Shown here: positions 4,618 through 61,900 of the stretch, piece by piece | Layout of the letters: each line of letters opens with the position of its first letter | Position numbering within the stretch: the first letter of the stretch is position 1 | Assembly (NCBI GenBank): GCA_023078555.1 | Contig: CM041203.1 | Coordinates: 329,481-393,480 of the forward strand | Source: Ulva prolifera | Lineage: Eukaryota > Chlorophyta > Ulvophyceae > Ulvales > Ulvaceae | Reading direction: 5' to 3' | Length of the DNA stretch: 64,000 nucleotides | Program-made: the position numbers and the translations under genes | The notes under the pieces: model-generated | Told to the model about the DNA's origin: nothing | Database searches by the model: none | The model's input: the letters and a program-made list of their open reading frames with translations, nothing else

Positions 4618-5773
4618 ATGCGTGAATGGTCATTCCCTGCAGGCTCCCTTTTTGGGATTCCCTTAAGGATACACTGTACGCACTGTGCTCGTGTTCCCAT
4701 GTCCTTCACTGGCATTACGTTGAAGTATCGTTCATGCACCTGTTTCATCGCTTTCCTTTGGGCACCTCAGATGGATGGCGCTGACAGCTTGAACTTACCT
4801 GCAGATCTACTTCCTGTGCTTTTGGTCTTTCAATGCTTATTCTATACACTAGAAGCTGAGTCAGACCATGGCAAGGCATTGGCCTTCGCAGCTCTCGTTT
4901 ACGGTCCTATTCTTTTCCTCACCGTGCTGGTTCACGAGTTTGGGCACTCCTTAGCAGCCAGGTCTGTGGGTGGAAATGCTCATACCATATTGTTATGGCC
5001 TTTGGGGGGTCTGGCATACTGCAGCCATGATGCCGGACCAAAGGCGGACCTATGGGTGACATTTGCTGGGCCACTTACACATGTACCACAAATTGGCTTT
5101 TGGGTACTGATCGCTTGGCTTCTCGACATTGGCGCTGGCATCCAAACGCATGGAGGCAACTTTCGGTATGCATGACCATTGTGTTGTTTTGATATCATCT
5201 GGCAGCGATAAGGTGCTTCAGCCAACCCAAATGCGTTTTGCAGGCCATCAGATTTTTGGTCGTCCGTTGCATGGAATGCAATCTGGGTGCGAGACTAAGT
5301 TCCCTGTGTGCCAGCTTGAAAGCACACCATGTGCCAGTCTGTTTATGTATGGTATGCTGAGGGCTTGTTGACCCGCCGTACCTCACTCTGCTGTCAATGT
5401 GCAGCTGAATGTGACGCTCATGGTCTTCAACCTTTGTGTACCAGCGTATCCTCTTGATGGTGGCCGCATCTTCGCCGATTTAATGTTGATAGCCGGCATC
5501 CCGACCGCAACTGCAGCCAAAATTGTGATTGCTGTGGCAGTGGTCGTTGCAGCTGGCATGATCATTGTTGGTGGCCTTCGCATATTCCTTGGGCCGCTTG
5601 CTGTTTTCATTGGCATTTTTATTCTTTGGAGTACATATGGACTGTGGAAGGACCTTGAAGCGGATCGCATCGAGCAGCATCCTTTATTCAAGAAGGGTTC
5701 ATCTCAGGAAGGTACAACCATGTACAGTGTCGAGACTGTATCAGAAGCACCCCGGGGCCCAACACGAGTATAG
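4618..5773 (+). CDS. M50 family intramembrane zinc metalloprotease (S2P-like)
   Basis: Multi-pass membrane protease of the site-2-protease clan. Exon 1 (4618-4675) encodes MREWSFPAGSLFGIPLRIH, the usual N-terminus of compact M50 proteases. Donor T|GTACGC at 4676 and acceptor TGCAG at 4804 keep frame and join it to a first hydrophobic helix. Exon 2 (4805 to about 5165) carries the zinc-binding HEFGH motif (about 4930-4950) inside a membrane helix and a GPLTH turn. Exon 3 (from about 5405) carries the second motif NLCVPAYPLDGGR, in which the Asp is the third zinc ligand, then two more hydrophobic segments and a polar tail ending at 5773. No PDZ or CBS domain is seen. The exon 2/3 junction is unresolved: the obvious GTATGC donor (5166) and TGCAG acceptor (5404) do not keep frame together, so there may be a small unseen exon, a non-canonical site or a sequence error. 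The gene converges with SRP72. Confidence 0.8.
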
Positions 5774-5998
5774 AGGGCGCTGAGTGAACTGTGTACGCTT
5801 ACATAATGTTTGAAACCACTGTAGAATTACGAATCGGCGTATTGGTACAATAGCCATCAGTCACACTAATCTGCAACATCATAGGTTGAGTGCCAGCCAC
5901 TGTGTGAACAGTTGACTGTTGTACGATACAACTGTGTGATTTAACTCATGCCACGATGATGGTATGCTGGATTTGAAACCTCAGTGTTGCAGCAGGAT

Positions 5999-8900
5999 TT
6001 ATCGTTTACCCTTCCGCTTGCCTTTAGCATGTCTGGGCGGGCCTTTGAGAACATTCGATTGCTTGGCTCGTGCATCCAGGTCCTCCATGGTAATGTGAGA
6101 TTTGTCTAATGAGTCATCGACCGTTCCCATCCCCTATAGACAGCTCAGTTTGATCGCTTCAAGCAGGGGTCAGCTGCAGCATGCACGTTGACATGCACAT
6201 ACACAAAGCCATGTTCTATGCTCGTTTTCGTTAACGAAAGCAGTTGTCTTCTTCAAGGAAGACTGCATTTCTTCAGATGATATATTCGCTGATGACAGTG
6301 GCATTTGAGAGCCTTTCACACCTGTGCCCCCTTTGACACCGCTTGACTAGCCTTCCGTTTGCGGCGCTTCTTGTTTGCGGCACGCTCATGCCAAGGCAGC
6401 CATCTCTCTGGATCAGGAGGCAGACCGGGATTTTCTGGATCAAAATTCTTTGGATAGCGTGCCACGCGTTTACGTTTTGGCTGTGGCCTGCCAGCTCTAC
6501 CTTGTGCTGAGCCTGCAATCCTGCATACCGCCAACAAACGCTTCTGGATCCTGACCATCATACCTTTATTGTGCTGTCACGATGTCAAGTACAGGCGTAC
6601 GCATGCAAGCAATGCGTTTTGAGATCACGGACGAGATCCGGAACAGCTGCAAAAGTGGTGGCCTTCAAAATGGAGCAATCTGAAATCAAACTTGAAAGCA
6701 GCTGTGACGGCAGTGGCAGATCAAGCAGCAAGACATGCTTCACCTTACGTAGGGTCCAAGAAGCACTGATGAGCCCTTTGAGACAATGCTTGATATCTCA
6801 AGCTCCTCTGCCTGCTTCTCATTGACCAAATTCGTGATATGGCTGGGTGAAACACCACCAACAAACTCTCTTGCGGCGTTTGGATCAACAGCCGCAAGTA
6901 TTCGGGCCATACGTGCTTGCTCTGCAAAATTCCCTTGTAACGGCCCGCCATCCTGCAGCCTAGCTGATGTCAAGCAGCCTGGATGCTGGATGTAACTTGG
7001 TGCGGTAGATAAGCTGCACATGGCAGCAAGTTGCAGATGCAGACCTTCAGGGATCTGAGACTCTCCAGGGCTGCCTGCAGTTTTCCGTTGCGCAGTAGCA
7101 ATGCTGCCTGTTGCTGATAACAGGCTGCAAGAGCCAGACTCCTCTCAGAGCCTACGGCCTGGCTGGTCCACCAGTCTATTGCAGCTTTCAATTCTGTTTG
7201 GGCCTCGTCATCTGCTTGTGGCAGTGCTAGTCGATCACGCACACATGCACGCGTTGCAAGAACAGCAGGTGCATGGCTGACATTGGCAGAAAGTCTTGGA
7301 TGTCCAAGCAGCTCCAGAGCCGCTTCCAGTTTTGGTGGCTGTGTGCTGCAGGCAATGTGTGCGCCCATAAGTACAGCACGTGTGGCATCTACACCTGGAT
7401 GTGCCTGCATCCAGGCTTCCACAACTCTGATACCTTGATCTGAACTCCGTAGCAAGCCAGCTGCCCCAGCAGTAAGCAGGGCTGCATCTTGTGAGTCCGG
7501 CTCACCCTCAAGAAGGGAATTTGCTGTAGCACAAGTCTGAGGAATGGCCATATTGGCAGCTGCTGCGCGGTTCCCAGCGATGGAGGCAACGACCAGCAAA
7601 GCGAGGGCATAGTTGTGCCTGACAGACGTCTGCGCAGCTTGTGGTAGCCGCTGTGCCAGCGCTGCTGTGACCGATCCACTTCGAGAGTCAATAAATGGTG
7701 TCAAATGGCGTCTGGCTTCCTGCACAGGGCAACCACATGAAGATAATTTAGTCGGCGCTTGATGTGATCGTTCAAACAGACACAGAGTTGGAAGCCAGCA
7801 CACACAACACCCTCTGAAGCACAAGTGTGTGTGTTATGATCATGTCCCGACTTGTTTCTGCAACAATTCATATCTGCTGAGGGTGGCAGCTTGTTGCTGG
7901 TTACGGATCCCATACCGACTAAACAAAAGCAATGTGGGATCAGCATCAGCACCAATAGCAAATTAGTGGCTGTGGCATCGGACAATTCAAGTGGGGACGC
8001 GCTTTGATGGCAGAATCTGACTTCATTGCGCGTAGGCACAGCATATTGTTGGTGGCAACAACTTGCAGGGCTGCGCCCACTTGTTGGCGCAGAAGGGCTG
8101 AGAAGGCACTGAACGCCTTATCAATTTCACCTTGCAGCAGTGAAACGTATGCAGCCTGTGCGCGTACAGGGCCTAGCTCCTCATCAATCTCCTGCACAAG
8201 ATAGCCATCTGCAGGTACCGGAGTACATAAGGCCGCTCAATATTGAGGTGTGGATTGTTGAAGTACAGGTTGGGTAGCACGTGGAGTCAACAGCCTTGAC
8301 GGTCATCAAGCTGATTCGATGGTTGTCATGGTGAATAAGTTTGGCCATGATTCAAGAGCTCGCTGCAGCTATTGAATTGATATCATCGAAGCCCTTCAGT
8401 CTGTTATACCTGGGGCAGGTCATTTGGACCAGATCAAATAAAATAAAATGGATCTGCACCCCTTGAGAAGCGCTCTCTTCGATTAGGGTTTCGTTCCCTT
8501 TAGTTTCTGCCAGGAGCAGCAGCTTTGAAGCTCTGTCAAGCTCGCCATCCAGGACTTCTGCGCACGCCATGTTGTATGCTAATTCTAGACTGTCTCTGTC
8601 CTTCACCCGGAGCTGTTGCAGTGTGCTCGGGACTAGAGCGGACTGGCCAGACAGCAAAAGAGAACCAATCATGTTGGTGGCCTGCAAGGCATGCACTCAC
8701 AATGCAGAGACAGCAATTGATCAGGCACGTGTAAGTCTACCAGTGCAACAGGGTCACGGCAGGACGAGGCCATGCATGTGTGATCTCGAGATGAGCAAGA
8801 TGCAAGTACCACTGCACCAGACGCTGTGGTCCTTGAGGAGAGTGCAATTCATCAAGTGCATCTCCGATGCCATGCAGAATCCCTACATGAAGGACACTCA

Positions 8901-9918: not shown

Positions 9919-9956
9919 TCTTATCTCATTATCTTATCTCGTGTCGGTTTTCTGGG

Positions 9957-9961
9957 CTCTG
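9957..9961 (+). repeat. Target duplication CTCTG, left side of outer Ty3/gypsy element
   Basis: CTCTG here and at 38160-38164. The uninterrupted relative at 52 kb has a single CTCTG at the same point, which confirms the duplication. Confidence 0.9.
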
Positions 9962-21249: not shown

Positions 21250-24200
21250 GATTATGGGTCCATTGGCGTGAGACGACTGCGCACACACCCGTCATCGAGC
21301 CGTCACTGGTCGATGATCTCTGAGCTGACTGGTCAGGGAAAAGCTAACACAGGACGTAGTTGTCTGTGGAACAATCGCAGGACGTAATTGTCTGTGGATT
21401 TGGTGACTCAATTTGGTTACTATGGCTGACGGGATATCGATCTACGAAAGTCGAGGTGCTAACACGCGAAGGAAACTTCCACCACTGGTTCGGACAGATG
21501 GAGTAAATCTTGGTCCTGAAAAATCTGGACGACGTGATGTATGAGGAACCAAGGCAAGCAGCTGATGAAGCTGAACAAGCAGCCGTGGAGGCTGCGCTCA
21601 CCCGTGATAGGAAGGTGAGGGCATACCTGAAGATGCACACTAAGGGTGCATTACAGGCGATCGTGACGCGTGCGCGGACTGCGAAGGCAGCATGGGACGC
21701 GCTGCACGATGACTACAGAGGAGGAATAGCCGTCCGAAGGCCGCAGATGCTGCGTAACGCGACAGAGCTGCAGCAAGGCGACGACTCTGTACAGCGGTAC
21801 ATAGACCGTGTGAAGGAAATCAGAGACGATTTCGTTGAGGCAGACATGGAGACATCAATGCCAGCGTTGATCAACTAGTTTGTGAAGGGGCTTAGGCCCG
21901 CCCTGGCGAATGTTGTGGGAGTACAACTGGGGGTGGCGATGAGTCAAGGCGCGGGTCTGGACCAGCTGTGTAATCAGCTGAGGGACCTGGCGGCGATCCT
22001 GCCCGACAGGGGTGCAGCTGCGCGAGCGGCTGCAGCAGTGGCGAAGAGGGAGTGGAACAAGGCTCGCGGGCCACTGAAGTGCCATTACTGCGGCAAGGAG
22101 GGGCACAAACATTTTGAGTGCACCAAGAAGCAGGACGATCTGGCTGCTGGCAAGAAGCTGCAGTGGGCCAACCGGAGGGATGACGGCGGAGATGGCAGCA
22201 AGGAGGGTGCAGGGTGCGCGCTGTGCGTCAGGACCGCGCGCGTGGCCATGGCGACGGTGAAGGTTCCGTCAAACCGATCGAACTATGTGCACTTCGACAC
22301 AGGGGCGACGCATAATTACGTTTCAGACCTCAGTATGCTTCATGACAAGCGTTCCACGCCAGTGGAGGTCGTGAAGATGGGAGGAAATGAAGAGCACGTG
22401 GTGGCCTGTGCGGGCACAGTGGTGCTCAGCGCTCCTGACGGCCAGGTGAAGCTGCTGGAGGCTCTGTGCGTGCCCACCATGCATATGAACCTGATGTCTG
22501 GCGCTTGCGTGACGGACCAGGGGGGTTCATATCACGGGAAGAGACAGACGCCGGAGGTGAAGGACGCTGATGACACAGTGCTGCTACGGGGTACCAAGCA
22601 AGATGGGTTGTACCTCATGGACTGTCACGTGATTCCTACAGACGTGCCAATGCCGACTGCTTTCGCAAACGTGGCAGTGGATGCTGAGGTGTGGCACAGA
22701 AGGTTCGGGCATGTCGGGATGGACAATCTCTACAAGGTGGAGAAGGCGGCAGATGGCATGGGCCGGGTGAACTGGCCAGAGAAGCATGCGCCGTTGTGTG
22801 AGATCTGTCCAAGAGCCAAGCAGTGCGAGGAGCACTATGCACGGTCCTCGTCCAGGGCTGAGAAGCCGATGGAGCTGTTCCACAGTGATGTGATGGGACC
22901 GTTTCCCGTTGCGGGGTTCCGTGATGAGCGGTATGCAGTCACGCTCCTGGACGACTACAGCAGCTACGCAGAAGTGATTTGTGTGAAGAACAAGTCGGAT
23001 GTGGCGGCAGCGGTGATTGAACGGCTGACCGAATGGGAGCGGCAGACAGAGCACAAGCTAAAGGTGCTGCGTACTGAACATGGTACAGAGTACATGGGTG
23101 TGCTGAAACGGTGGTGCCGGCGGAACGGGGTGGTGCGGCAACTGAGTGCGCCGCGCACGCCGAAGCAGAACGGGCGAGCAGAGCGGTACAACAGGACAGT
23201 GCTGGAGCGCATGCGAGCAATGCTGCTCGACGCGATGATACTAAAGTGTTTCTGGACTTTTGGTCTGGACACTGCGGCGTACACGCGCAACAGAATTCCT
23301 GTCAAGGGACAGGTGGTGACGCCGTATGAGAAGCTCTGGGGGGTGCGCCCGGACATCTCGCATCTGCGGGTGTTCGGCTGCAAGGCGACGCTGTTCGTGC
23401 CATCGAAGCTGAGGGACAAGCTGGATGCAGTCAGCGAGGAGGTCATCTTCGTGGGCCACGCGAGGCACTCGAAGGCATACAGGCTGGTGCAGCACGTGAA
23501 CGGCGAAGTCAAGCTGAAGGAGAGTGCTAACGTGTCCTTCCAAGAGGACAAAGTCATGCCAGCAATGGAGACGTGCGCGTCGGCGAGACAGGACGCTGCG
23601 CCGGTGTATCATGATCTCTTGCTGGAGGTTCCAGAGCAGCAGCCAGAAGAGGATGATGCAATGCTGGATGACGAGGCTGTGGCGTGGTCGCTGAATGACG
23701 ACGCAGAGGACCCAGATGAGGACTGGGTGAATGAGGCAGATGATACCTACACGGCCATGGAGGCTGAGGACGCAGATGCTGATGATGACGGCAGCGATTT
23801 GGACCCGGACGCAGAGCCGGGGGGTGCGCCAGATGCGGAAGCCGGTGGTGAGGACCAGGCTGCGCCGGGCCGCTACCCGCAGCGTGTTGCCGTATCAAGC
23901 ACATTTGTTTATGGCAAAGGGTGAGCAGCCGGCGGAGGACTTGCTGGTGCCGCCCCGGTCGTACAAAGAGGCGATGAAAAGGCCAGATGCTGCTGAGTGG
24001 CAGCAAGCGAAGAACGACGAGTATGCGTCGATTCTGGCCAAGGGGGTGTTTGAAGTTTGTGAATTACCCCCAGGAGAGAGAGCACTGCCGGCGAAGGGCG
24101 TGTGCGACCTGAAGTTTGATGCCAAGGGCAACCTGGAGCGGTACAAGTATCGTTTGGTGGTGCTGGGGAATCTTCAGGGGAAAGACGATGTGGGAGAAGT

Positions 24201-25579
24201 GTTTGCGCCCACAGCGCAGAGTGCAACATTCAGGATGATGCTCGCTATGAAGGCAGCTAATCCGCGGCTGAAGCTCCGGCAGGTGGACGTGAAGTGTGCA
24301 TTCCTTCACTGCGACCTTGACGAGGTGGTGTATGTCCGCCTACCTGAGGAGTTCGGTGGAGGAGTCTGGAAGCTTCGCAAGGCGCTGTACGGACTGAAGC
24401 AGGCTCCGAGAGCCTGGAATGAAACTCTCACCAAGGCGATGATGTCAGAAGGATTCACGGTGTCAGAGAATGACCCATGTCTGTTCATCAGAGGTGAAGG
24501 CAGGAGCAAATCATATGTGCTGGTGAACGTAGATGATTCTGCGATCCTTGCAGAAGAAGGTGAACAGAAGAAGATTCTGGAGATGCTGGGAAAGCATTTT
24601 GAGGTGAAGGATCTGGGACCGCTGCATTTCTTTCTGGGGCAAGAAGTTGAAGAAGTGGCTGGAGCAGGTCTGCTATTGAAGCAGCCTCAGTATGCTAAGA
24701 ATGTGCTACAGAGGGCCAGCAAGTGGGATTGCAAGCCAAAGGCGACTCCGATGGAGACCAGGCACATGATGACGAAGACCACAGGAGCGGAGCTGAAGGA
24801 TGATGACCCAAGGAAGGTGGCGTACGGAGAGACAGTGGGTGCATTGCTGTACCTGTCCACTCATACGAGACCACATCTGGCGTATCCAGTGGGAGTGCTG
24901 AGTCGATTCATGGCAAAGCCGACAGATGTGCATTTCCAGGCAATGAAGAGAGTTCTGAGGTACTTGAGAGCTACATGGAATCATGGGCTGATGTTCAGAT
25001 TCGATCCAGAAGACAAGATGAAAGGGGTGAAGACCTTCACAGAAGCAGACTTCAAGGAGCTCGGGGTAATCAGGGATGAGGCATTGAAGCTGTATTCTGA
25101 TGCAGATCTGGCTGGGGATCTCGAAAATCGAAAGAGTACATCAGGTATGATGTTGATGATGCATGGGTGCCCAGTGATGTGGAGTGCCAAGTTGCAGACA
25201 GTGGTGGCCACGTCCGCAGCAGATGCTGAGTATATGTCAGCAGCCATGGCAGTGAAAGAAGCACTGTGGATGAGGAAGTTGCTGGGTGACATCTATGGTC
25301 GTGTTGAGCGGATGACTGTTTATTGTGACAATCAGAGTGCTTTGCATCTGATGAAGCAGAGGATTGCTGGTGCTCCAGGAAGGAGCAAGCACATAGACAT
25401 CCAGCATCACTTCATTAGGAACAGATTTATGCGACAGGAGATTGATGTCCAGTTTGTGCCAACAGCGGAGCAGAAGGCTGATATGCTGACCAAGGCTTTG
25501 GCTGGTCCAGCGCTAGGAAAGGCAGTACACGTGGCTGGTTTCTTGGTGGAATCTCCAAGCGACAGCGCTTGAGGGGGTG

Positions 25580-32654: not shown

Positions 32655-35600
32655 CTTGCGCAACAACAAAAATCCAAACAGGAATGTTAGAATTTCTGAC
32701 AAGGTTTCGAAGTGAAACGCGAATGCTGCGCAGGCAATCCCTGAGATTGATGCTACACGGTTTCTGCAATGTAACAAGAAGTGCTCGGTGGCTGTACACT
32801 GTGCTTCTACCGGTTGCATTTCGTCTGATGTTGCGAAATCAAACGAAACCAATTTGCTCTTGTGTCTGGATGTACCGATGGTGGTTTTGGAAGTCTCTCG
32901 CTATCTTGACATCAAGTCGATTAGCCCATCTACAACGGATGCGTACCTTGTGCTGCCTCGGGTGACAAATGCGCCCTGGTTTCCACTGACAAAACGTATG
33001 GTTCTGGTGGGGTGTCATCGGTTGTCATCGATGTGTGCCACCGTGATGGACACGAGTGACGACATTATGTGCCAAATCTGGTATGATCCGTGCAGAGCAA
33101 GCCCTGGTTCCTTGCCACGGAATGGCTTGCCAAGTCAATTGCAAGCCCTGAGTCAGCCACAAAACGGCTCGCGCCTGACTTTCGTTTTTGACGGCAAAGT
33201 CGCGGGAGTTGGGTGCTCCGTTCTCTGGGATTCTGGTGCAGCACACTCGTTCATCAGCAAAGATTTTGTGCGTCTGCACAAATTGCGTACTATTACTGGT
33301 TGCACTGATGTGCAATTGGCTAATGGGTCAGTCCTACGCTCGTCCGAGATTGTGACGTTAAAGCTGCGTCTGCAAGCCCACTCGTCTGCATGTCGCTTTA
33401 TAGTAATTGACATGGTGCCGGGTTTCGACGTCGTGTTAGGCGATGACTGGTCTCACAACAATCAAGTGGTGGCCAACTATGGCTGCGCCACGTCAGGCGT
33501 TGCAGCTCACCTTTGGTTGCGTAAGTCGAGGTGCTCGCTGTTCCCGGGAGGTGTGCCTTGTCCGTCGGATGTGTCTGAGGATGGGCCTATCTCTGCGCGT
33601 ACGGCGGCGCGCCTACTCATGGCGCCTCGGTTTGGTGCTGCATCTCCGTTTGTGGTACTGCTTCGCAAACAAGATGAGGCTCCTCCGCCTCCTCCTCCCC
33701 GGCGGAGCGAGCGGTTGGCTCAGCTTCTCTCTGATTATGAGGATGTTTTCTCTGCTCCAAGTCTCCTGCAGCATGATGCTTCGTCTTTGGGGGACATTAC
33801 GCCAGAATGTATCCCTACAATACCGGGATCCATACCTGTCAACAGGCCGCCTTCCGGCTGGCGGGTAAGGAAAAGGCAGAAATTGAACGGCAAGTCAACG
33901 TTTGTCTTGACAATGGTTGGGTTGAGCTTTCTAGCTCTGCATACGGCGCTCCTGTGCTGTTTGTACCTAAGCCTGATGGAACGTTGCGTATGTGCATTGA
34001 CTATCGGCCGTTGAACAAAATCACAGTCAAGAACAAATTTCCAATGCCGCGCATTGATGATTTGATTGAAAATCTCAATGGCGCTACGTATCTCAGCACG
34101 CTGGACCTGGCCGCCGGGTACCATCAGCTCAAGTTGAAAGAGTCTGATGTCCCCAAAACGGCGTTTAACACGCATTTTGGCAAGTTCGAATGGCGCGTGA
34201 TGCCGTTTGGTCTGACAAACGCTCCTGCTGTGTTTCAACACGCAATGAATCGAGTATTTGGAGCGCACCTCAACAAATGTGTGTGCGTTTATCTCGATGA
34301 CATTTTGATTTTCTCGCGCTCTGAGGAAGAACATTTCCGACATCTGGAAATGGTGCTACAGCTTCTTCGAGAACATAAGCTCTTTGCCAAAATGAGAAAG
34401 TGTGAATTCTTCAAGCCTGAGCTCAAATACCTGGGTCACATCGTGTCTTCTGCGGGGCTGCGCCCTGATCCTGCCAAGGTGGACACGGTGGCCTCCTCGC
34501 CTGTACCCAAGTCCGTAGCCGACGTTAGGCAGTTCTTGGGGTTGGCCAATTACTTCCGCAAGTACATCAGAGGGTATGCGGCCATGGCTTCGCCTCTAAC
34601 GGATTTGTTGAAGGGCTTGACAAAACAAGAACGTGCGGGTAAGCGCAGCCGCTTCCGACGTGTCAGTCCGTCCGACATGCAAGCTATGCATGCTGCCTTT
34701 GCTTCTCGTTGGACAGACTTGTGCACGGCGGCGTTTGGTCGCATCAAGCAGGCGTTGATTTCGGCGCCCGTTTTGGTCCTTCCTGATCCTTCTAAGCACT
34801 TCACTCTGGTGAGTGACGCCTGTTCCAAGCCTCCAGCCGTGGGAGCCGTCCTCATGCAGGAGGGACATCCTATTGCCTATTACTCTCGCAAACTGTCCGG
34901 CCCTGAATTGAATTATTCGGTGTCTGACATAGAGATGTTGGCTGTTATATGCGCGCTGAAGGAATGGCGCTGCTACCTTGAAGGTGCCAAGTTCACGATC
35001 GTGACTGATCATCAGCCCAACACCTATCTCGACGTTGCTTCCAGTGCTCACACGCTCAAACGCCGGGCACGTTGGTTGGATGTAGCGTGCGGCTATGATT
35101 ATGTGTGGTGTTATCGGCCGGGGCGTATCAATGTGGCGGATCCGGTGTCCCGGGCGCCTCAGCATTTTTCGCTCATATTGTCTTCCACCACATCCGCGAC
35201 CACAGATAGCCCCTCTGCGCATAGGGTGCTACGTACTGTGTGTTGCGCTCTCTTTGCGGTCAAATTGACTAGGGCTGCCCGTCGCGCCGATGATGATGCT
35301 CGGGACGCTGAGCCGGCCGGCACGGACCGGAGTGTGCAGGGTCTGCACGCTCGTGACGGGGGGGATGACACGCCTCCGGGTTCCCAACCTCCAAATGACA
35401 CTGCAGCTACTTTTGAGGCTGACATGGCTTATCCGGCCGGGTCCGCGGACGATGAGGCCTCTGTCCAAAGCTTCATTGTACAAAACTTTGTCCAACGTTT
35501 CAAGAGGGGTTACGCAGAGGGGAAGGTGTCGCCCCACATGCCTAATTACCCTAGGTTGCGACAAGACAAGTTCGGGTTGTTTTGGACTCCCGATGAACAA

Positions 35601-37031
35601 ATCGTAGTGCCTGATTACGACAATTTACGGTTCGAAATGTTTGAGTCCGTACACAGCCATCCCTTCTCCGGTCACTGGGGCCTCAGTAGGACCCAGATCA
35701 AGGCGAGGCAATTGTTCTTCTGGCCCAGCTTGGCTGCAGATCTCAAGCGCTGGTGCGAGAAGTGTGACTCCTGCCAACGGGTCAAGGCTGACCGGCAAAA
35801 ACCAAAGGGTAAACTACACCCCTTGCAGATTCCCGAGCGTAGATGGGAATCGGTCTCAATGGACCTTATCACAGATCTCCCTGTTACTACGCAAGGGCAT
35901 GACGCGATATTTGTAGTTGTGGACCGCCTGTCAAAGATGGTACATATTGAACCTATCAGCAAGATAATCTCTGCTCAAGGACTGGCTGCAGTGTATACGG
36001 ATCGAGTGTTCCGGTATCACGGTGTGCCACAAAACATTGTCTCAGACAGAGATACACGCTTTACGAGCCTTTTCTGGCGTGAGCTTGCCAAACGTTTGGG
36101 AACAACGCTGTCCATGTCTACTGCATACCATCCGCAAACGGACGGGCAGACCGAGCGTATCAACTCGGTACTCGAGGACACCTTGCGTCACTTTGTTGGC
36201 CCTTATCAACACGACTGGGATAAGTTGCTGGCTCCTGCGGAGTTTGCTTTGAACAATTCGTGGCATCACAGCATCCGCAACACACCCTTTATGTTGAACT
36301 ATGGGCAACATCCCGACGACCCAACGGTGGCCAAATTGCGGAGCTTGAATCCTGCAATTTCCCAATTCGTGGGACGCTGGTCTGAGCAGTTGTCTCGCGC
36401 CAAACTGTGCTTGGAAGCGGCTCAACAACGGATGAAACGTTATGCTGATCGAAAACGTTCCCCGGCACCGGCTTTCCGGCCCGGGGATCTTGTCCTGCTT
36501 AACGTGAAGAACTTCCGGCTCCAGTCGGGTCTGTGCCGTAAGCTGGCTCCTCGCTATGTTGGTCCGTTCAAAGTCCTCGAGGCTGTGGGTAGCACCAAAC
36601 TGGCATACCGGTTAGAGCTGCCTGTGGGCCTGAAAATCCATCCTGTTTTCCACGTGAGTGCTCTCAAACCCTACAAGCACTTCCCAGACAATTACACGCC
36701 TCCTCCGTTGCCAACCTTAATTGATGGCCAGCTAGAATACGAGGTAGATTGTATTTCTAACACTCGCAAAGAGGGCAAGTCGAGGGAGTACTTGGTGCAT
36801 TGGCTGGGCTACAATGAGTGCACCTGGGAGAATGTCAAAAATCTCACAAATTGTCCGGAGCTTCTTCAAGAGTTCTGGCACAGCAAGGGCATCGCGTGTC
36901 CACACGCGATCCCTTTCAAATAAAGCTATATTGTTAGCTTTAAGGCCATGGATGTGTTTGTTCCTAGACACGGCCAGTCATTCTTATGATTGGTCTGCTC
37001 GGGACGAACAGACTTCCCTCCGGGGGAGCTC

Positions 37032-38159: not shown

Positions 38160-38252
38160 CTCTGGACGTTTTTTTCCAGTCTCAGTCAGTCTCGCTCTAG
38201 AGGACTGAATATTAGGGAACTTGCGAGCTTGTTCGGTGTTGGTTGCTTGACT

Positions 38253-38310
38253 CACGTAGGCGTCTGATGACGCCCTTTGTCAAGGCCGAAACATTTTATG
38301 CCGGTCCGTG
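38253..38310 (+). ncRNA. Hammerhead ribozyme, copy 1 (type I, slightly degraded)
   Basis: 58 nt. Stem I: CACG (38253-38256) pairs with CGTG (38307-38310), and GGCGT (38259-38263) pairs with ATGCC (38298-38302, one G-U pair); the internal loop is TA against GGTC. Core box CTGATGA at 38264-38270. Stem II: GCC (38272-38274) pairs with GGC (38284-38286) around CTTTGTCAA, with C facing C at the base. Second core box GAAA at 38288-38291, then a very short stem III. Compared with the 52-kb copy, the stem II closing pair and part of stem III are weakened, so activity may be low. Confidence 0.8.
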
Positions 38311-38360
38311 ATGTTTATTTAATACAGCATCAACCAGTGAACTTTCAACCTCAGTTAGCA

Positions 38361-38778
38361 CAACAATCGCTTGCACCACGACCCTGCCGAGATGAACTGC
38401 TACGGCATTTCCTGTTGGCACAAGATGTGTTCCTCAACCTCGCAATGTACGGCATTCAACATCACTAATCGGAACATGCCGTGATACAGTGTTGGTAGGT
38501 GTTGATCAATGAATGAATTAGATGATGAATTGTATCTTGAATCATTGCATAGCTATTCTGGGCCCCCTGCATGTGGACAGCTCAGGAGCCGTACATGTGT
38601 GGCGTAGCTGAGAACCATCGACGCGCGCAAGACCTTCGTCAGCAAGTAGCAGTGCTACTCTCATGGCCTGCGGTGAAGTGAGGAGTGTCTCAATGTCTCG
38701 CGTGAAATTTGTACGATTGTGACCAATTGTCAGTGATTTGCTGTTAGTGGGATGAGTGCATGGCAGCAGCAGCGAGAC
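38361..38778. other. Short intergenic stretch
   Basis: Begins with the right-hand CAACAATCG duplication (38361-38369). No gene, repeat or regulatory motif recognised in the remainder. It probably holds the 3' end of the coiled-coil gene to its right. Confidence 0.4.
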
Positions 38779-52040: not shown

Positions 52041-52274
52041 GTACTGAGGTAGAAAGTTGACTGGTTGATGCTGTATTACATGAACATCACGGACCGGCGT
52101 AACATGTTTCGGCCTTACCAAAGGACCTCATCAGACGCCAACGTGAGTCAATCAACTAACACCGAACCAGCTCGCAAGTTCCCTAATATTCAGTCCTCTA
52201 GAGTGAGACTGACTGAGACTGGAAGAAACGTCCAGAGCCCAGAAAACCGACACGAGATAAGATAACGAGATAAG
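52041..52274 (-). mobile_element. Hammerhead-bearing short element (E), copy 2, uninterrupted
   Basis: 234 bp, inverse to copy 1 and matching it along its full length (roughly 85-90% by eye). It begins (minus strand) CTTATCTCGTTATCTTATC and ends near ACTTTCTACCTCAGT. It contains a complete hammerhead ribozyme and no long frame. The flanks GCACAT and GCATAT may be a decayed target duplication, but this is weak. Confidence 0.8.
52088..52145 (-). ncRNA. Hammerhead ribozyme, copy 2 (type I, intact core)
   Basis: 58 nt on the minus strand. Stem I: CACG pairs with CGTG and GGCGT with ACGCC, separated by an internal loop (TT against GGTC), the place where natural type I hammerheads make the loop contact with stem II. 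Core box CTGATGA is followed by stem II GGTC/GGCC (with the usual G-C closing pair) around CTTTGGTAA. Second core box GAAA. Stem III is the palindrome ACATGT (2 bp with a 2-nt loop as a monomer, 6 bp as a dimer). The predicted cleavage triplet is GUU, just before ACGCC. Every invariant core position I can check is present. Tiny palindromic stem III is typical of hammerheads in Penelope-like elements and some SINE-like repeats, which cut best as dimers. Confidence 0.88.
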
Positions 52275-52329
52275 GCACATCACGCCGCCCGCAAATGTGC
52301 AGTTATGTTTCGCGTCGAAAGGGGCCCAG

Positions 52330-52405
52330 CAGCGACCTCCTTATCGGGACCCCCCGCGGATGGGTCACAGCGTCATGCTTCGTACTTGGCGAACCGAGCA
52401 TGACG
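52330..52405 (+). repeat. Inverted repeat arm 1 with an internal hairpin
   Basis: GACCTCCTTATCGGGACC...CATGACGG. It contains GTCATGCT ... AGCATGAC, an 8-bp perfect stem with a 15-nt loop. About 88% identical by eye to the reverse complement of 53655-53735. Confidence 0.75.
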
Positions 52406-53654
52406 GTGTCTCTGTCGGGCCAACAGCGCGCAGGCAACAACAGGCTGGGGCCCCATGGGGGCGCCTTTGCCATGGCTGCAATCACAAGCAAGTAATACGT
52501 TGCTCATAGCGGATGTGACGTTGCATAGTTGACTAGATGAAGGCTGTGTTGCCGTGCTATTTGCAGCGGCATGTGCTGTCTCATCTTCCAGGCTGCGTAT
52601 GCTCTTCAACAGAGCTGTGAGATACTGTAGACGCACTCAAGCATGATTGAATTATTATCGGCCCAATGTTTAGCGAATAGCTGCGAACGAGCGGCAGTAT
52701 CTCGATATAGTTGCGCTAGTGCTACCAGCAGAAGGTTGCCTTTCCTCAAGCCGGACAGCATCGGTAGATATATGACATCGAATTATGCCTTCATACATGT
52801 TATCCTTGCTGCATCACACGGGGTCGTTGTATACCGATTGCCGCAGCCTGCGAGATACTCCAGCCGCGAGATTGTACATGCTTCATTTAACATGAGACCA
52901 CATATACATGGCCTCTGAAACATCATGAACTTTGTTACCATTGCTGCTCTTTTATTCGCTGATATCATGGGTGATGTCCGCTGGTGACCACGTCTATGTC
53001 TTTATCTTGTTCGAGGTACTGACACGGGCAACAATGGCTCATGCCAACTATTCGCTGCAATGGCCGATGAGACTATGAAGTTGGCAAGCAAAATCTCTGC
53101 CATACCACGGCTGCATTAGCGCTTGCTGAGCTGCGTAGAAGCGAAAACGAGCCTTTGTCAAGCAATCAATCTTTGTCCTGCAGCACACGCCGGCCAGAAA
53201 GTGCAACAAGCGTAGACGTAATGCTGCATGCCGCTTGGTTCAATGCCTCCACAGATGAGTCTAGCGAAGTAGTAGCAAGCAATCGTCCCGTGATGATAAG
53301 TGCAATGGATGGTAAGCATCGACGACGCTGCGGGGCTGCACTGTACGTGTGCGGTCCCTGAAAAGCCCGAGCACACGCAACGCTCAAAATGATGCATCGA
53401 TAACTAGCTGTCCAAATTACCCCGAACTGGCTACAGGATATCATTGTGTTTGAAAGCGGGCCGTTCCAGGCTGCAGGCTCCGCCGCTGCGGGCTCGGGGT
53501 TGCATTTGCTCGACCAATGCAGTCGCGCGGCACTGATAACATCCACATAGCAGTACGAATCGTTTGTGGCGCGTGTGACTTCAATTATTTCTATCGCGCA
53601 CAGCCACAGCGCCAGGGCCACCGCGACGGCAAGTCGAAACTGCGCGCGAGGCCC

Positions 53655-53735
53655 TGCCGTCATGCTCGGTTCGCCAAGCACGCAGCATGACGCCGTGACC
53701 CAGCCGCGGGGGTCTCGATAAGGAGGTCGGCCCAG
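53655..53735 (-). repeat. Inverted repeat arm 2 with an internal hairpin
   Basis: Reverse complement reads GACCTCCTTATCGAGACC...CATGACGG and keeps the GTCATGCT/AGCATGAC hairpin. Confidence 0.75.
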
Positions 53736-54049
53736 CAGCCTGCCAGCAGCCCCCAATCGCACCCAGACCACCAGGCTGCCAAATGTGGGCAATGCATGCA
53801 GAGGCACGCAAATGCACCTCCGCGGCACCTCTAGCTCGTGCGGAAGCAGCCGCACGACAAAATAGTCCAACTGCCCAAGAAACGCAGGAAAAGAGATAAA
53901 TCCTAGATAAGATAAGATAAATCCTAGATGGCAATGTCCGTGGCAGGAGGACAGCTAAACACAACAAACTTATCAGTGACAATGACAGACAATCACAGTA
54001 GACTAGTACTACAACACAGCTGCATGAGAGACACACAGCCACTACATCA

Positions 54050-55640
54050 CACATCCGCCAAAAGGCGCAGAAACAGGTCCCTGCCCACGTAGAAGTCATC
54101 CTCCACGATGCCAGGGTGGAAGGCCAGAATTGCTCTGCGCGTGCGCGCAACTGAAAAGCCGAGATGCGACGCGTCGAGCCCAATGGCGAGGAAGCCGGCA
54201 GGGTGGAGACACCGGTTTTCACCCAAACTCGGGGTGTTGGAATCTCGCATGGGGCGTGCGTCACGGGACACCACTCACCACACCGCCACGCCATGCACTC
54301 CACGAGATCAGTGTTGACAACTGGAATGCAGATTCGCGAAGCACGCAAAAAAGCTGCCGGTGAATGCATTCGATTTGTGAGACTGAGTGCACAGCAACTT
54401 TCAGCACAGAAAATGGTGAAGCACACGCATAGTCGGGCTCGATAGCACAGGCAGAATAGCTGTTGGAGCTGGTGTGCAAGGATTGAGGCTCAGATTCGAA
54501 CAGGAGATCACTTGAGGTATATGTGAAGTGCTGATCGGGCGGATTCTGGTCGAGCTGCATGTTGGTTGTTTGGCCTTGAGGCTGCGAATTTTCACAACAC
54601 AACATCAGTGGTAATGCACTCTGGGGTATCACAGTGGCCTGCCGCAAACATCCTTGCACTGAGAATTGAAAAAGTCAGTTTTGGGGCATATTTGGAGGTG
54701 GACAGCACCACACATGGATCCCACCTGCCACATAATTTACATGTGCTACTCCTACAAGTGCCAGGCAAGCCAGCAAGCTGCTGGAATTGGGGGCTGGCAT
54801 GGCGGGCTCGCTCGGCCTCACTCTGCTGAGTCATGCCAAACCTGGATGTGAACACAACGAGTTTGGCAGAAAACCAGAGGAGAAGACCGTCTAGGGTGGC
54901 GGAGGTGTTGTCGCGAAGCCGCGCACACATACCCATCACCCATGCACGGAAATAGACACGGCCGGTGCGGACCACGGAGGGAAAGAAGGTGACGCGCGGA
55001 GGCGGGAGGTGCTGTAGGTGGGCGGCGAAATTCTTCGGGCGGAAGACTGTGCACAGCTGTGACGATACGTCACAAGGCATAGACATGCATGATCTAGAGT
55101 ATTCTAGAAGCTTCTAAAATGTCCCGTCAGCACACAAGCTTGTGGCTGGCAGCACGGGACGCTGTCAACAGTGGTCGCCAGACCGTCTTTCGTCAGCAGG
55201 GCGGGCCATCGAGAAGCACGAGCCTAGAGATATCTAGAAGGAATACGTATGTCAGCCAAGCTTGGCTTACACTATGGGAGCCTCTGGTGTGCACGGGGAA
55301 CAGTGGGCTGAGCTCAGCACGCTGTGGCAGCTGCAGGTGTCGTACACAGGCTGTATTATAGTACATAAGCAGCTGAACCTTAAAGGGTAGACGTCAGATC
55401 TCTTCTTCTATGTCACTTAACAGACGTTTCAAAGAGCAGGTGGATGTCGGTGGTGTCGAGGATGATCCGGTGCTCCAGGATGTCGATGATGCCAGCGGGG
55501 TACGCGGCGAGGACGGCGATTTTCACGGCGGTGTACAAATCAAGCTCCTCAAGTCAAACGACGACAACCCCATCATCGACGTATCTGAAACCTGCAATGT
55601 GTTGGGTCACCTGCGGCCCAAGGCAGCATTTGTCAACAAC
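54050..55640 (-). CDS. Putative minus-strand gene with GC3-rich exons, family unknown
   Basis: Three minus-strand blocks look coding but were not joined with confidence. About 55590-55410: LDLYTAVKIAVLAAYPAGII followed by DILEHRIILDTTDIHLLFET, with nearly every codon ending in C or G. About 55070-54815: TVFRPKNFAAHLQHLPPPRV, then RTGRVYFRAWVMGMCARL, also GC3-rich. About 54270-54050: NRCLHPAGFLAIGLDASHLG, ending GRDLFLRLLADV before a stop. The codon bias differs from SRP72, TRM13 and KATNIP nearby, which suggests either high expression or a different origin. I do not recognise the family. Plus-strand frames in the same place (for example 55410-55760) have the wrong codon pattern and look like shadows. 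Confidence 0.35.
55102..55114. promoter_or_regulatory. Heat-shock-element-like motif
   Basis: TTCTAGAAGCTTC is three alternating nTTCn/nGAAn units, the minimal heat-shock-factor site. It lies just upstream of a minus-strand frame starting at 55086. If the GC3-rich blocks are one gene it would instead fall in an intron. Confidence 0.4.
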
Positions 55641-55953
55641 GCATGCATGCACGAGTCGAAACCGTCAGCCACATGGCACCAATTGCCGAGATTATTAGCC
55701 ATGGGTCATGCGATACAGTTCCTATCAAACTTTGCTGCGAATTCTTGGCAGAACATCTGATCACAACACAGCATGCTCCGCACATCGTTTCTTCAGTTAT
55801 CGCCATTTGTCACCTGCAGCTGCAATGCGTGGAGAACGCACACAGAAGCGGCCCAGGACGAATGTTGCCAGCATGGTATCCAGCGACGATTACAATTTGA
55901 TGTGAATGCATCGAGGTGGGGCTTGCATTCGCACGGATCCCTCTTCATTCTCG

Positions 55954-58900
55954 ATGAAGAACATAGGTTCCGACGAGCTGTCGCTGGCTCAGCTTGCGGT
56001 AAGCATTACATGGCTTCGCTTAGTTCCTTGCCGAAATGACAGACACATTTTTTTCAAGCTTCGAGAAATGGTTGTGCATGATAAATGCTAAGCTTGCGCC
56101 AGAATTGATGGGCATGTCTGGTCTCTGCAGATACAAGAATAAGACGCATTCCATTTAAGGTCTTAAACGAATCCAAGCTGACTCATAATGAAAACACTTT
56201 TGCACTATGCAGGGTAAACAAAGGCCACGATTGGACGATCTGCAGAACAATCGGTAAGCCCGTTTTCTGACCTCCAGAGATGCGATAGTTCTACACTGTA
56301 GCAAACCATGGCTCTAATGACATCGATCACGTGACACTTGCGTCATCTATGTTGTATGATGCTGTCTAACTGCAGATTCCACGGTAGTCTGGGCCAGACC
56401 TTCAGAGGGAGCAATAGCGCACGCGGACACAAAGACAGCGAGCCGCTCGACAGCGATGGCAACGCACAAGCGCCTGAACCAAGCCTCGAACATTCTACGT
56501 GTAAAAATGTGAGCAATGCTATCCCGTCTCACGGTGGAGGTGCGATGCCTTCGCGGCTTTGGAGTATCAGTGACCCAAGGGTTGAACTGACGCTCGCTCT
56601 GGTCGCCCGAAATCCGTGCAACATGAAACGTCAGGCACCAAAAACTTCCCACTTTGTTTCATGTCGCAGTTCTGAGCTTGACAACGCAAGACATCGACTT
56701 TCTGCGGTCTAGTGTGCTGGAGATGAGATCTTCATTTGCTACATTCCAACAGGACCCAAGGCAGACAGTCGAGCCTCTTCATTCAGTTCACCATTCTAGT
56801 GACTCTTACAGTGAGCTTGACTCTGAGGAGATCCCGGAAGACATCCATGGGGACAGCACTTGCCAGCAGAGCAGTGGGGATGGTCTAGGTGCAGTGGACA
56901 CAGCCGTCCGCCGTCGCATTTCCCGGCCTTTGTCCTCAAAGCAAGCTGCTTCACCTGCTTGTGTGGCTCCACGCATTCCAGAGTCGAAGAAGCCGGTGCT
57001 TGTCGCGTCTGCAGTGGATAGCGTCGCAGCTGGTGATTCACAGGCGCAGCATACAGTCGCTGCAGTGATGCAGCTAGACAGTGGGCCCCGTGCAGTCGCA
57101 CATGCAATTGCCGGGCTGGGAGAGGGAGAAGGCATCATGCAGAGACTGTCCAAGCAGGCACAGGCTATGGAAGGCAAGAGCGCAGCCGTCCTCGATAGCA
57201 TCCTCGAAACACTGAGCCAGGCCAGGCATGAAGGAGTCAATCTTACTTCGTTGTTCGAGGCACTCATTAGCAACGCCACGACCCCCGTTATGGATGCTGT
57301 GTCCATACCTGCTTCACCACAGGGCTTGACAGACTGTACTCGAAACACAAAGAAAGCAGCAATGCGATTACCTAGGGGCCTGTTACCTGATGTTCTCACA
57401 AAGGCAGTCCCGCATGATCATAAGAATGAGATTATTCTTCGACTGCTTGGCTCACATGACGACACTTCTTGTGTGGTGCGGCTCAAGTGCATTGAGGTTT
57501 TGGACCAGTGCTCCCAGAGGTATGGTTCCGATCGCTATTTCTATCTTGGACGCAGTGCTTCCGCTTTAGATATTTCGATTTTAAGTTCAGTTTCCGAGGG
57601 CTGATGCTTACAGACTGCCAAGGTCCTGTACTCAGCATTCTTTGCTGGAAATAGCGAGCAATTCGCACAGGCAGTCTAACTGAGGTACTGCCACAGTGAC
57701 TACAAAGTGCAATGCAGGATTGAACTACTACAGCATCATGTTGCAGTACAGGGCTGCCTTCAAGCTGAGTCATCGGATCCAGCATTACTGTTGAGCGATC
57801 CCACACAAGCTCAATTAAACACACAGTCTTGGAAAGCCAGGTTGCCTCATGCCAGTGCAGGACGGTCAGCTACTTCCACAGTTTCACATACTGGTCACCT
57901 GGAGATCATTATCACCCCGCCCGAGAACTCGCAGTGTATTCCTACCGCTTTACGAGTGTACAACTACAATGGTGATGCTGGAAGGCTAGCACAAGGAGCC
58001 AAATGGATGGCAGTATTTAGATGCAGCCGCATGGTTTGGCATGGCGTGTTGCAGCAAGGCACAGGCGACGTGGATGCTGACTGCTCAGTCACAATCCAGC
58101 TTTCAGGGCGCCCCAATGCGCATGGACTGCTCTGCCAGAAGCCAAGCAGCCTTCGGGACTTGCCAATGACTCCAGAAACTGCGTTCGCTCAGCCTAAAAG
58201 CGCCGGCGTCCCGCGTAGCACGCCATCTTTGGCACCAGACATCACAGCCCTGTCTGATGCCATGCTGCTTGCAGAGCTTGCCCGCCGTGGACTTGTGCCC
58301 ATGCCACAGGCCTCCACTCAGGGTGGAGCTACTGAGCCACCTCATCCATTGCTTGCAAACAGACATAAGCAAGCAGCAGGTGCAGACTCGCTGGGTGCCC
58401 TGGATCACAGCATTCCATATGCAAATTGTGCAGATGCTTTAGAAGCGGTCGCGACATGTGTGCTTGATGCACATCCAGAAACTGCTGCTGCCGTCGGCAA
58501 ATTCCCCGAAGACTACCCACAACCTCAGATTGTAGCTGCTGGCCCTGAATGGGTGAGTAGACCTGCTGTGCGAAGATCATCAGATACAGCCAACATGGCT
58601 CAAGAACTTGTGCTCAGTGCAGACGCTAACCTCACAATGCCGCCGATGCCAGCAATTTCAGTGCCTGATGCTAACAGCATTCTCAGCCCAAACCTCGAAC
58701 TCAGCCCGACATCAAATCGCCCATCGAGAAGTTTGAGCCTCGAGAGTCCACAAGACACTGATGGCATATGTCTTGTGGATGCGGACATCTGTCTAGCCGA
58801 CGCAGTGCGGCAGAAAGCTGAGAGTGTCACTGGATGCTTAGTTTCAGATCGTACAAACTCAGGTGCTGTTGACACAGCTGCAGATGATGGCGGGGGCCTT

Positions 58901-61900
58901 TTCGGTGGTCGAGTCGGGAGTGCGCGTCACAGGGCTGCTGATGCTGACACCAGGCCAATTCGGCTCGGCGGTGTTTTGGCTGAACTGCCACAGCAAGCAA
59001 GATCCAGTATTCCAGGAGATGCAAATGCTGCACCGTTGAGCTTGCAGCCAGAGCCAATGATGCTTATGCTGTCAGATGCAGACAGTTCTCGGGGTCAGCC
59101 CAAATCCCCATTTGCATCTCATACAGCAGCACTTGATACAGCAACAACAGATGTGCTGGACGTTGATGTGCTGGGAGACTGCGCTGGCCGTATACGACCT
59201 CCAATACCACCACCAGCAAGAAGGAGATCGGCCAAGGGGCCGCCCTTGCCACCCTCACGCACCGCCAATCCAGATGCCGAAAATGCATATGGCAAAGCGT
59301 CCCAGCCGATCGCAGGACGCCGGGGGCCACCTGTTGATCTCAATCAGTCGCTGGACTCCTTGACTTTCTTCCAGCGCCACAATCGCAGTCGCTTGACAGA
59401 ACCTGCACTTCCCGGGCTACCAGAGCAAGGGGCAGAGGAGTATAATGAGACAACAGCAGCAGTCAAGACTGTAGATTCGCCTGTATTACCTGTCCTGTCA
59501 GGAGGCCGAGGGGGGGGCTCAACTTCCGCAAAGAATAGTCAGCGAGAAGCAATGAAGCACCTGCCGTCGGCCCCCGAGGCTGCCGTGAAGGCGTCCGTGA
59601 CAGCGTCTTCCGCGTGGAGTGTTCAGCATGAAGGTCTATCGTTCCTGATGGAGATGGGGGAGTCTGCAGAAGCCTTCTCGGTGTCCATGGATGTTGCAGA
59701 TGCTGTGGCGGTCTCTGGTGCGCCCAAAGGAGAGCAACCTCAGTGGCCTGACCCTAACTTCCGTGTGCCAGTCGAGCCAAGCGGGCGTCACCTTGTGCTC
59801 CGTCTATTCTCAACATGGGGAGACATGCACTACATCGGGCTGTCAGCCATTGAGGTGTTTGATCACAAGGGCACCCTTGTGTCGCTGAGCGATCGCACTT
59901 CGCAGGTTACAGCAGACCCACATTCTGTGAATGTGCTTCCTGAGTACAGTGGTGATCCCCGTGTCCCTTCCAATCTCTTTGATGGAGTGAATTGCACCAG
60001 CTCCGATCTGCATCAGTGGTTGGCGCCATATTCTCCTGGCAAAGTTCATAGTGTGCATATCGACCTTGGCAGCGAGGTCTCCCTGGGCATGTTGAGGGTG
60101 TGGAACTACAACAAGAGCCGCATTCACTCGCAGCGAGGTGTCAGATCCATGGAGGCTTGGCTGGGAGACTGCTGCATCTTTCAGGGGGAGATCTCCCAGG
60201 CACCAGGAGCAGTGCACGGTGCACCGCAGTGCGCTGAATGCATTGTGTTCACTTGCAGCGCAGCTGCATTAGATGAAATCGAGCGGCATGATTGTGTGTA
60301 TGAGCAGCCTGCAGAGAGTTATGAGGTGGATGTCGCACCATTGGCGCTGCAGGCAGGGGCACCCGAGATTGAGCTTGTGCCGGGAACTTCACCTCTCTGT
60401 TCTCTACATTTGATGACTCGCCCATACACTGCAGCTGTGGTGCCTAAGCCACCGCCAACATCTCCCAGGGGGATCATGTGTCGCACTGTTGTGATCGAGG
60501 TGCTATCAACATGGGGAGACGTAGACTTCGTCGGTCTCACAGCTGTGCGGGTCCTCGATGGATCAGGGCAACCAATTGAGCTTTCAGCCAGTGCTGTACA
60601 CACAGATCCACGTGATCTGAACACCATTGCAGGACATTCAGGGGATGATCGCACACCAGACAAGCTGGTGGATCCGGTTTGTGTCACAACCGATGACCGC
60701 CACATGTGGCTGGCGCCATGTGCACATAGCAGTGGGCGGGTCTGCACTGTGACTCTGCATGTTGCGTCCGAGCCCCGCCTAGTTTCAGGGGTGATGCTGT
60801 GGAATTATAACAAAGACCCGGAAGGCACCTTGCGCGGTGTGGGGAGTGTGCGCGTCACTGCGGACGATGAGCTGGTGACGCCATCATGTGGTGTCACAGT
60901 GCCCAAGGCTCCTGCGTCAGATGCCCTCGATTTCGGATACATGATTCCTCTGCCATGTGTGTGGACAGGGATGCCTGCCGCACTGATGTCAGGGCCCCCC
61001 CTGCAGTCTGGGCTGATTGCGGCAATGCGCGACCCTGCTGCAGCGTTTTTGGTACTTTCCTGCCAGCTTGGTGAACATGTCGACAGCAATGCGGATGTTC
61101 TTGTGGAAGCTAGTTCATGCCTGTTTGCATTCTTATGGATGGTGTCTGGGATTTGCACAATGGCGGGTCATGCCTTAGTCGAGGTCAGGTGCAGGCGTTC
61201 ATGGCGGCAAACAAGCATGCCCACCATAGCAAGACAGTTCGTCAGGACTGCCTTACACCTCTGCTGCCCAGCGGCTTTGTGTTGAAGCTGGTCATTTGGA
61301 GCACATGGGGAGACCCCTTCTACGTGGGATTGACTGGCTTGGAGGTATATGACGCAAGCATTGGAATGGTAGAGATTTCGCCTGATCGGGTGAATGCAAC
61401 ACCTTTTAGTAGTGTGGCTGTGTTGCCAAACATGGCAGGCGACGCACGTACTCCGGACAAGCTGGTGTGGCTCTCTGGCTTTGGTCTGTGTTTCTCTGCT
61501 GGCGGCGAGTCGATGTAGCTTTTTTCGGGGGCACTCAGCGCAACAGCACTTGTGTGCAGGTAAGTAATGACAGGAGTGGAGCCTCATCACAGTCGTGGCT
61601 TGCACCACGGCCAAAGTGTGCACTTCATGAGGCAAGGCCTAACATTGTCATAGTCATGCTGCCACATGCTGTGGCTCTGTCCAAACTAAGATTTTGGAAT
61701 TACTGTAAGAGCCCTGAAAGGGGCGTTTGTGATATGGATGTGCTCCTCGATGATTGTCTCATCTTTTCTGGCTACCTCAAGAAGGCATCCGGCGACTTGT
61801 GTCATCAGGCTGTAATGTTCACGAACTCCCCTTCAGAGATTGCCGCAGAGGCACATAGTGTGACTTGCTGTGCCAGCGATGTCTACCCAACGCGAGTGAC

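Follow-up and report, generated by a model that had tools for sequence, protein, structure and literature searches.

A short sequence with the appearance of a hammerhead ribozyme (HHR) lies on the minus strand of the window, by which is meant the whole 64,000-nucleotide stretch of the Ulva prolifera genome analysed here. The question raised by this locus is what kind of element such a motif belongs to. The original prediction saw a dispersed short element without a gene of its own, possibly SINE-like. According to the evidence described below, the motif is probably a dimer-type HHR in the 3' UTR of an autonomous Chlamys-like Penelope-like element (PLE) of a photosynthetic eukaryote, with an N-terminal GIY-YIG endonuclease (EN+). 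What can be read from the DNA sequence itself is the motif, its place, the coding capacity, the 5'-truncated insertions with flank repeats, and the pairing of stem I across two lineages.

The hammerhead motif in the window

The motif occupies positions 52147-52088 (minus strand, 60 nt, CTCACGTTGGCGTCTGATGAGGTCCTTTGGTAAGGCCGAAACATGTTACGCCGGTCCGTG) and was given 88.1 bits by model R1, which was built from copies of the element, the window copy among them. Type I HHRs are marked by CUGANGA and GAAA boxes, three stems, a UH cleavage site and an open-ended stem I. The rule-based scan placed the core boxes CTGATGA at 52128-52134 and GAAA at 52107-52110 (minus strand, as are all the parts given here). 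Stem I consists of 5 + 4 pairs around an internal loop: its inner 5' strand GGCGT (52135-52139) faces ACGCC (52100-52096), and its outer 5' strand CACG (52142-52145) faces CGTG (52091-52088). U.G pairs may partially close this loop in the window copy. Stem II (GGTC/GGCC, 52111-52127) has 4 pairs, one of them G.U, and a 9-nt loop. Stem III is formed by 2 pairs, C-G and A-U, both within the palindrome ACATGT (52102-52107), and the cut is predicted between 52101 and 52100 (GUU^ACGCC). With the boxes, the three stems and the UH site all found, the presence of a minimal type I HHR with a palindromic two-pair stem III is confirmed at the sequence level. The original prediction therefore holds for both core boxes, the two-part stem I, stem II and the minimal stem III of the Penelope type. 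The palindrome would give two pairs in a monomer and six pairs where two RNAs meet. A lone RNA with a two-pair stem III is expected to be a poor ribozyme; when the majority HHR sequence was folded alone, the lowest-energy fold was not the HHR.

In 479 Mb of Markov sequence with the composition of the window, the rule-based scan gave 18 matches under loose limits (stem I at least 4, stem II at least 3 and stem III at least 2 bp), or 0.0024 per 64 kb, and 2 matches under strict limits of 5/4/2, which the window copy passes, or 0.00027 per 64 kb. When 287 kb of DNA was scanned (some loci overlapping), every match was a copy of the PLE. The core pattern CTGANGAN{6,30}CGAAACATGTH was present at 68 places in the genome, some with a broken stem II, versus 1 for the reversed pattern. 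Zero matches to the HHR pattern were found in viral and prokaryote contigs, and zero to a 118-nt 3'-end query in phages; among 30 stretches of viral contigs that fit a pattern, none encodes a relative.

The HHR models of Rfam may be better suited to longer stems III. They gave no HHR match on the whole 64-kb window; on a 141-nt stretch, HH9 scored 14.7 bits (E 0.32), and over ten sources 8 matches were obtained, all far under the gathering threshold (best 21.5 versus 48.5 bits). The covariance-model check suggested with the original prediction was thus negative. A chance match within a structured 3' UTR could be argued from this result, from the about 3.3 loose or 0.4 strict matches expected per 88.9 Mb, and from the small number of independent covariation events described below. 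Such a coincidence is nevertheless very improbable, given that PLEs are known to carry HHRs (PMC6155905), that the motif sits in a PLE 3' UTR, and that the pairing of stem I is kept across lineages.

A decayed Penelope-like element at the locus

Searches (blast) with long copies of the element indicate that the window HHR belongs to a PLE copy that lies in pieces from 55643 to 52043 on the minus strand. Remnants of the reverse transcriptase (RT) were detected by tblastn at 54050-55643 as three broken pieces with gaps between them, corresponding to residues 806-891, 858-963 and 932-996 of protein P0001. The end of the RT region and the first part of the 3' UTR follow at 53780-54215 (minus strand, blast), and the 3' end with the HHR and part of the 3' UTR lies at 52043-52299 (minus strand), ending in ...CCTCAGT. 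Between them, within the PLE 3' UTR, is a later insertion of 1,480 bp (52300-53779) with the 8-bp repeat CACATTTG on both sides. Subterminal inverted repeats were seen in this insertion by eye, and it looks like a DNA transposon with an 8-bp target duplication. The apparent want of a gene in the window PLE is therefore due to decay and nested insertion. That the element has no gene of its own, as originally proposed, is contradicted both by the RT remnants at 55643-54050 and by the three places in the genome with an open GIY-YIG/RT frame.

Two further pieces of the element are present in the window. A second copy of the PLE 3' end, truncated on its 5' side, is found at 38160-38362 (plus strand), with an HHR at 38251-38310 in which one pair is broken in stem II and one in stem III. 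A fragment of the 3' UTR without the HHR was found by blast at 9920-9961 (plus strand).

Other features of the window were noted by eye. Long LTR-retrotransposon frames, Copia-like and Gypsy-like, lie at 21882-25572 and 33807-36923. A frame of 1,192 aa at 57707-61285 resembles KATNIP, a ciliary protein, which suggests a flagellated host. Chlorophyll-binding protein genes gave 38 matches, mostly single exons, which indicates that the host is a photosynthetic eukaryote.

The encoded protein

The PLE frame runs without stops at three places in the genome, L010, L020 and L029 (residues 1-996, 1-996 and 1-994). L010 and L020, each encoding 996 aa, are 92% alike across 3.9 kb. A GIY-YIG domain was detected at residues 93-174 (Pfam, E 8e-8), and a search of the genome for this domain returned four places (L010, L020, L029 and L030), each of them a member of this PLE family. 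Five database relatives of the protein were found with 33-92% identity, and 3 of these 5 carry a precomputed GIY-YIG annotation. In an alignment of 7 sequences, 2 from the window's genome and the 5 relatives, the cysteines C440 and C442 (CxC) and the motifs FDVKNM, MGGxxSP and RYxDD are invariant. The domain order in the aligned relatives is endonuclease, CxC, RT, with the first part absent from P0006. No invariant cysteine occurs in the 7 sequences within residues 80-200, the approximate place of a CCHH motif; this would fit Chlamys, whose endonuclease is not known to have that motif.

The fold model of the protein is of moderate confidence (pLDDT 71.5, pTM 0.46). In a comparison with the PDB, telomerase catalytic subunits rank first, in line with a PLE RT, at TM-scores that are low (0.25-0.46); a sequence search of the PDB gave one match, with E 0.44. 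A predicted telomerase-like RT together with a GIY-YIG endonuclease points to membership in the PLEs. Chlamys and other N-terminal EN+ PLEs have an N-terminal GIY-YIG, a CxC motif and an RT, in addition to an insertion-in-fingers domain and their own place in the RT tree. The N-terminal GIY-YIG, the CxC motif and the RT were all found in the PLE frame. A second frame of 226 aa, partly proline-rich, overlaps the start of the 996-aa frame at positions 1049-1729 of L020, and is possibly an ORF1.

Copies of the element across the genome

The genome of the window (88.9 Mb in 44 contigs) was searched at the DNA level; 40 of 186 candidates were scored, and at least 41 matches were obtained. When 23 copies were oriented by their HHR, their 5' ends proved to lie at many different positions, from -195 to beyond -3,299; two of these copies, both in L027, represent one duplication, and the window break at 52299 is due to the later insertion. 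Short copies of 195-505 nt make up about half of the 23, as might be expected if they constituted an independent non-autonomous retrozyme or SINE with an HHR, moved by the PLE machinery. No common 5' end can be seen, however. The breaks fall at scattered positions, the short copies align collinearly with the long ones, and Tandem Repeats Finder detected no 150-450 bp unit in the window. An independent family of this kind is therefore very unlikely, and the short copies are 5'-truncated forms of the autonomous PLE. Accordingly, the element of the original prediction is indeed dispersed, but it is not a short non-autonomous one, and a SINE-like nature was not supported.

A common 3' end is shared by 21 copies in two variants, ...CTCAGTTAGTACA and ...CTCAGTACA. 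Insertions truncated at the 5' side and sharing one 3' end are a mark of PLEs. By raw count, 14 of the 19 copies with both junctions visible have flank repeats of 7-20 nt, and the flank repeats begin with CA in 12 of these 14; in L025 the flank repeat does not adjoin the 5' break. In L020, the HHR starts 386 nt past the stop codon. The distance from the predicted cut site to the 3' end is about 58-65 nt in the genomic copies.

Full 5' ends were recognized in L029 and L030 (40 of 45 candidates scored), and neither of these two was preceded by an HHR or a sense copy of the 3' end in that set. Pseudo-LTRs of PLEs are reported to arise where another copy adjoins a full-length one in tandem (PMC8969392). 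L029 carries about 39 nt of the 3' end in inverted orientation ahead of its 5' end. Inverted repeats of the final 30-40 PLE nucleotides were also noted beside the ends of the element in L029 (264-293 and 4752-4784), as was a direct repeat of the same part beside its end in L020 (5139-5210), a 3' extension. Such end repeats resemble the 3' extensions and inverted pseudo-LTRs known from PLEs. In L027, two HHRs 3,370 bp apart were considered as a pair of pseudo-LTRs and rejected: the unit, with Copia frames inside it, is duplicated in tandem. At 979-7720 of this locus, a unit of about 3,370 bp, comprising a fragment of a Copia polyprotein and an HHR-bearing PLE end, is duplicated in tandem with 99.97% identity.

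Conservation and covariation of the ribozyme

Both HHR boxes are kept in 34 of 42 aligned copies, which comprise the best matches together with L029, L030 and the second window copy; the other 8 have lost one core box. The majority of the young family keeps all required HHR positions. No covariation was found among 20 distinct rows of the young family (alignment A2), as expected because the family is young.

An older PLE lineage was reached through an RT remnant with 60-62% identity. In its representative L058, the HHR core is kept at the same place, and in this lineage stem I is GACAT/GTGTC in place of GGCGT/ATGCC, remaining paired through a change from G-C to A-U; the cut site is GUC instead of GUU. 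The innermost G-C of outer stem I is broken in this lineage. Variation in single copies was also observed: L075 and L081 have G.U at the changed stem I pair, L067 has GGTC/GACC as stem II, and L068 has U-A for C-G in stem I plus an A-C mismatch in that stem. GAAA is lost in L059, and stem II is damaged in L030. Model R1 gave zero matches on L031, L060, L063 and L064. No similarity is seen in L060, in L063 the similarity stops ahead of the HHR site, and the stretch of L064 ends just short of a core-pattern match at C2:10201298. In L068 (G000 C9:3778373-3778449), the HHR differs in stem I and the loop of its stem II is longer, and this copy may form a third PLE lineage with L083-L085.

For a wider comparison, 20 short pieces were chosen for differing from the majority or resembling L058, and R1 matched all 20. 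Adding 11 rows from the older loci and the window gave the 31 rows of alignments A3 (fitted to the model) and A4 (plain MAFFT). The proportion of paired cells is 93.4% (A3) and 92.3% (A4) in inner stem I, 79.4% and 73.1% in outer stem I, 87.1% and 85.5% in stem II, and 88.7% in stem III. The covariation score beats 500 of 500 shuffles in A3 and 497 of 500 in A4, a score inflated by kinship among the rows. Two-sided cells number 17 versus 7.4 in shuffles (A3) and 16 versus 8.0 (A4). With the partner slid by +2, they number 13 versus 17 (A3) and 15 versus 16 (A4), and paired cells are far fewer. Pairs with two-sided change are no more numerous than in shuffles (4 versus 2.9 in A3, 3 versus 3.4 in A4), the observed number being reached by 135 of 500 and 384 of 500 shuffles, respectively. 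The independent two-sided events are few, namely one lineage-wide switch from G-C to A-U and those in single copies. Paired changes that keep the stems, which the original prediction had named as a check, thus occur to some extent between lineages and are absent within the young family.

In all 4 older copies compared, the HHR is by raw count more identical than the preceding 3' UTR is on average: 50/60 versus 224/370 in L058, 51/60 versus 264/365 in L059, 58/60 versus 266/370 in L057, and 55/60 versus 338/382 in L030. Elsewhere in the 3' UTR, the best 60-nt stretches reach 48/60 (L058) and 50/60 (L059), and therefore the HHR is not the sole conserved part.

These observations bear on whether the motif is an inherited relic, an ancestral ribozyme now without cleavage or importance. 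The about equal conservation of the rest of the 3' UTR, the loss of a core box in 8 of 42 copies, and the weakness expected of a monomer with a two-pair stem III are in keeping with a relic, as is the report that HHR-dead mutants of the Anolis PLE PAc still insert in vitro, the HHR not being required there (PMC11167929). On the other hand, stem I was re-paired in the second lineage, and the young-family majority keeps every required position. A relic is on balance unlikely, and a ribozyme retained by an autonomous PLE is preferred.

Proposed mechanism

In the retained-ribozyme scheme, the element's own protein would bind the element RNA near its 3' end, the target DNA would be nicked at sites starting with CA, and reverse transcription would begin just 3' of the ribozyme. 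Two element RNAs, joined via the palindrome ACAUGU, would complete stem III and so permit HHR cleavage. Both full 5' ends are without an HHR-bearing pseudo-LTR, so that cleavage may need two RNAs pairing via ACAUGU, perhaps with help from the protein. HHRs of newt and axolotl are reported to cleave far better as dimers (PMC6155905, PMC7229834). In PAc, the HHR is reported to cleave solely with the element protein, and reverse transcription to begin at an internal position of the RNA beyond the cut (PMC11167929). From the PAc data, the dimer-favoured HHRs, and insertions that end past the cut, we infer a protein- and dimer-assisted ribozyme beside the start of reverse transcription. Because the genomic copies run past the cut site, cleaved RNA would not be the usual template. 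The role of cleavage is more likely to be the processing of read-through, dimeric or tandem transcripts than the making of a priming end.

Relation to known ribozyme-bearing elements

HHRs are characteristic of canonical PLEs. Like the canonical EN+ PLEs Penelope/Poseidon and Anolis PAc, the element described here has a minimal type I HHR close to where the inserted unit ends, together with a GIY-YIG endonuclease and a telomerase-like RT. The canonical elements differ in having a C-terminal GIY-YIG and HHRs in pseudo-LTRs, whereas here the GIY-YIG is N-terminal and the HHR was found in the 3' UTR only. In PAc, the HHR cut at +26 and the start of reverse transcription at +111-118 place the start 85-92 nt past the cut (PMC11167929), compared to the ends of copies here at about 58-65 nt past it. 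Animal and plant retrozymes also carry an HHR in a dispersed retroelement, but are described as short tandem or LTR units with no gene of their own, unlike the present element with its RT and endonuclease (PMC7229834). The terminons and Athena PLEs are described as giant and telomeric (PMC12477314); the element here is dispersed and has a GIY-YIG endonuclease.

With Chlamys, the element shares the N-terminal GIY-YIG, the CxC motif and a photosynthetic host, in addition to an inverted piece of the 3' end ahead of one 5' end. The N-terminal EN+ PLEs (Chlamys/Naiad) of Craig et al. 2021 reportedly lack canonical HHRs; in this respect the element, with an HHR in its 3' UTR, differs. That branch is said to have been described by these authors later than a 2017 review. 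The review itself states that HHRs were present in every PLE sequence known at that time (PMC6155905), and Chlamys elements are reported from Ectocarpus (PMC12477816). A description of an HHR in N-terminal EN+ PLEs was not found in the literature searched, a body that leaves the key papers of the branch outside its reach. The want of an HHR in N-terminal EN+ PLEs is a reported absence, not a defining trait of the domain order. PLE HHRs are already known; what appears new is an HHR in an N-terminal EN+ element, from a branch reported to be without them.

These findings imply that HHRs may be older or commoner among PLEs than believed. If the deep N-terminal EN+ branch has HHRs, then either the ribozyme dates back to the origin of the PLEs, or it arose repeatedly at a similar place, which would be just ahead of the insertion ends. 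A bolder and still rather doubtful idea is that HHRs go back to the common ancestor of every PLE, those of the deep N-terminal EN+ branch as well, and that here, without pseudo-LTRs, two element RNAs joined by the protein would pair via ACAUGU and cut each other, making the ribozyme an RNA-dimer sensor in the retrotransposition complex. Having open frames, a single HHR copy and numerous similar insertions, the element would offer a simple system for studying the purpose of the cleavage.
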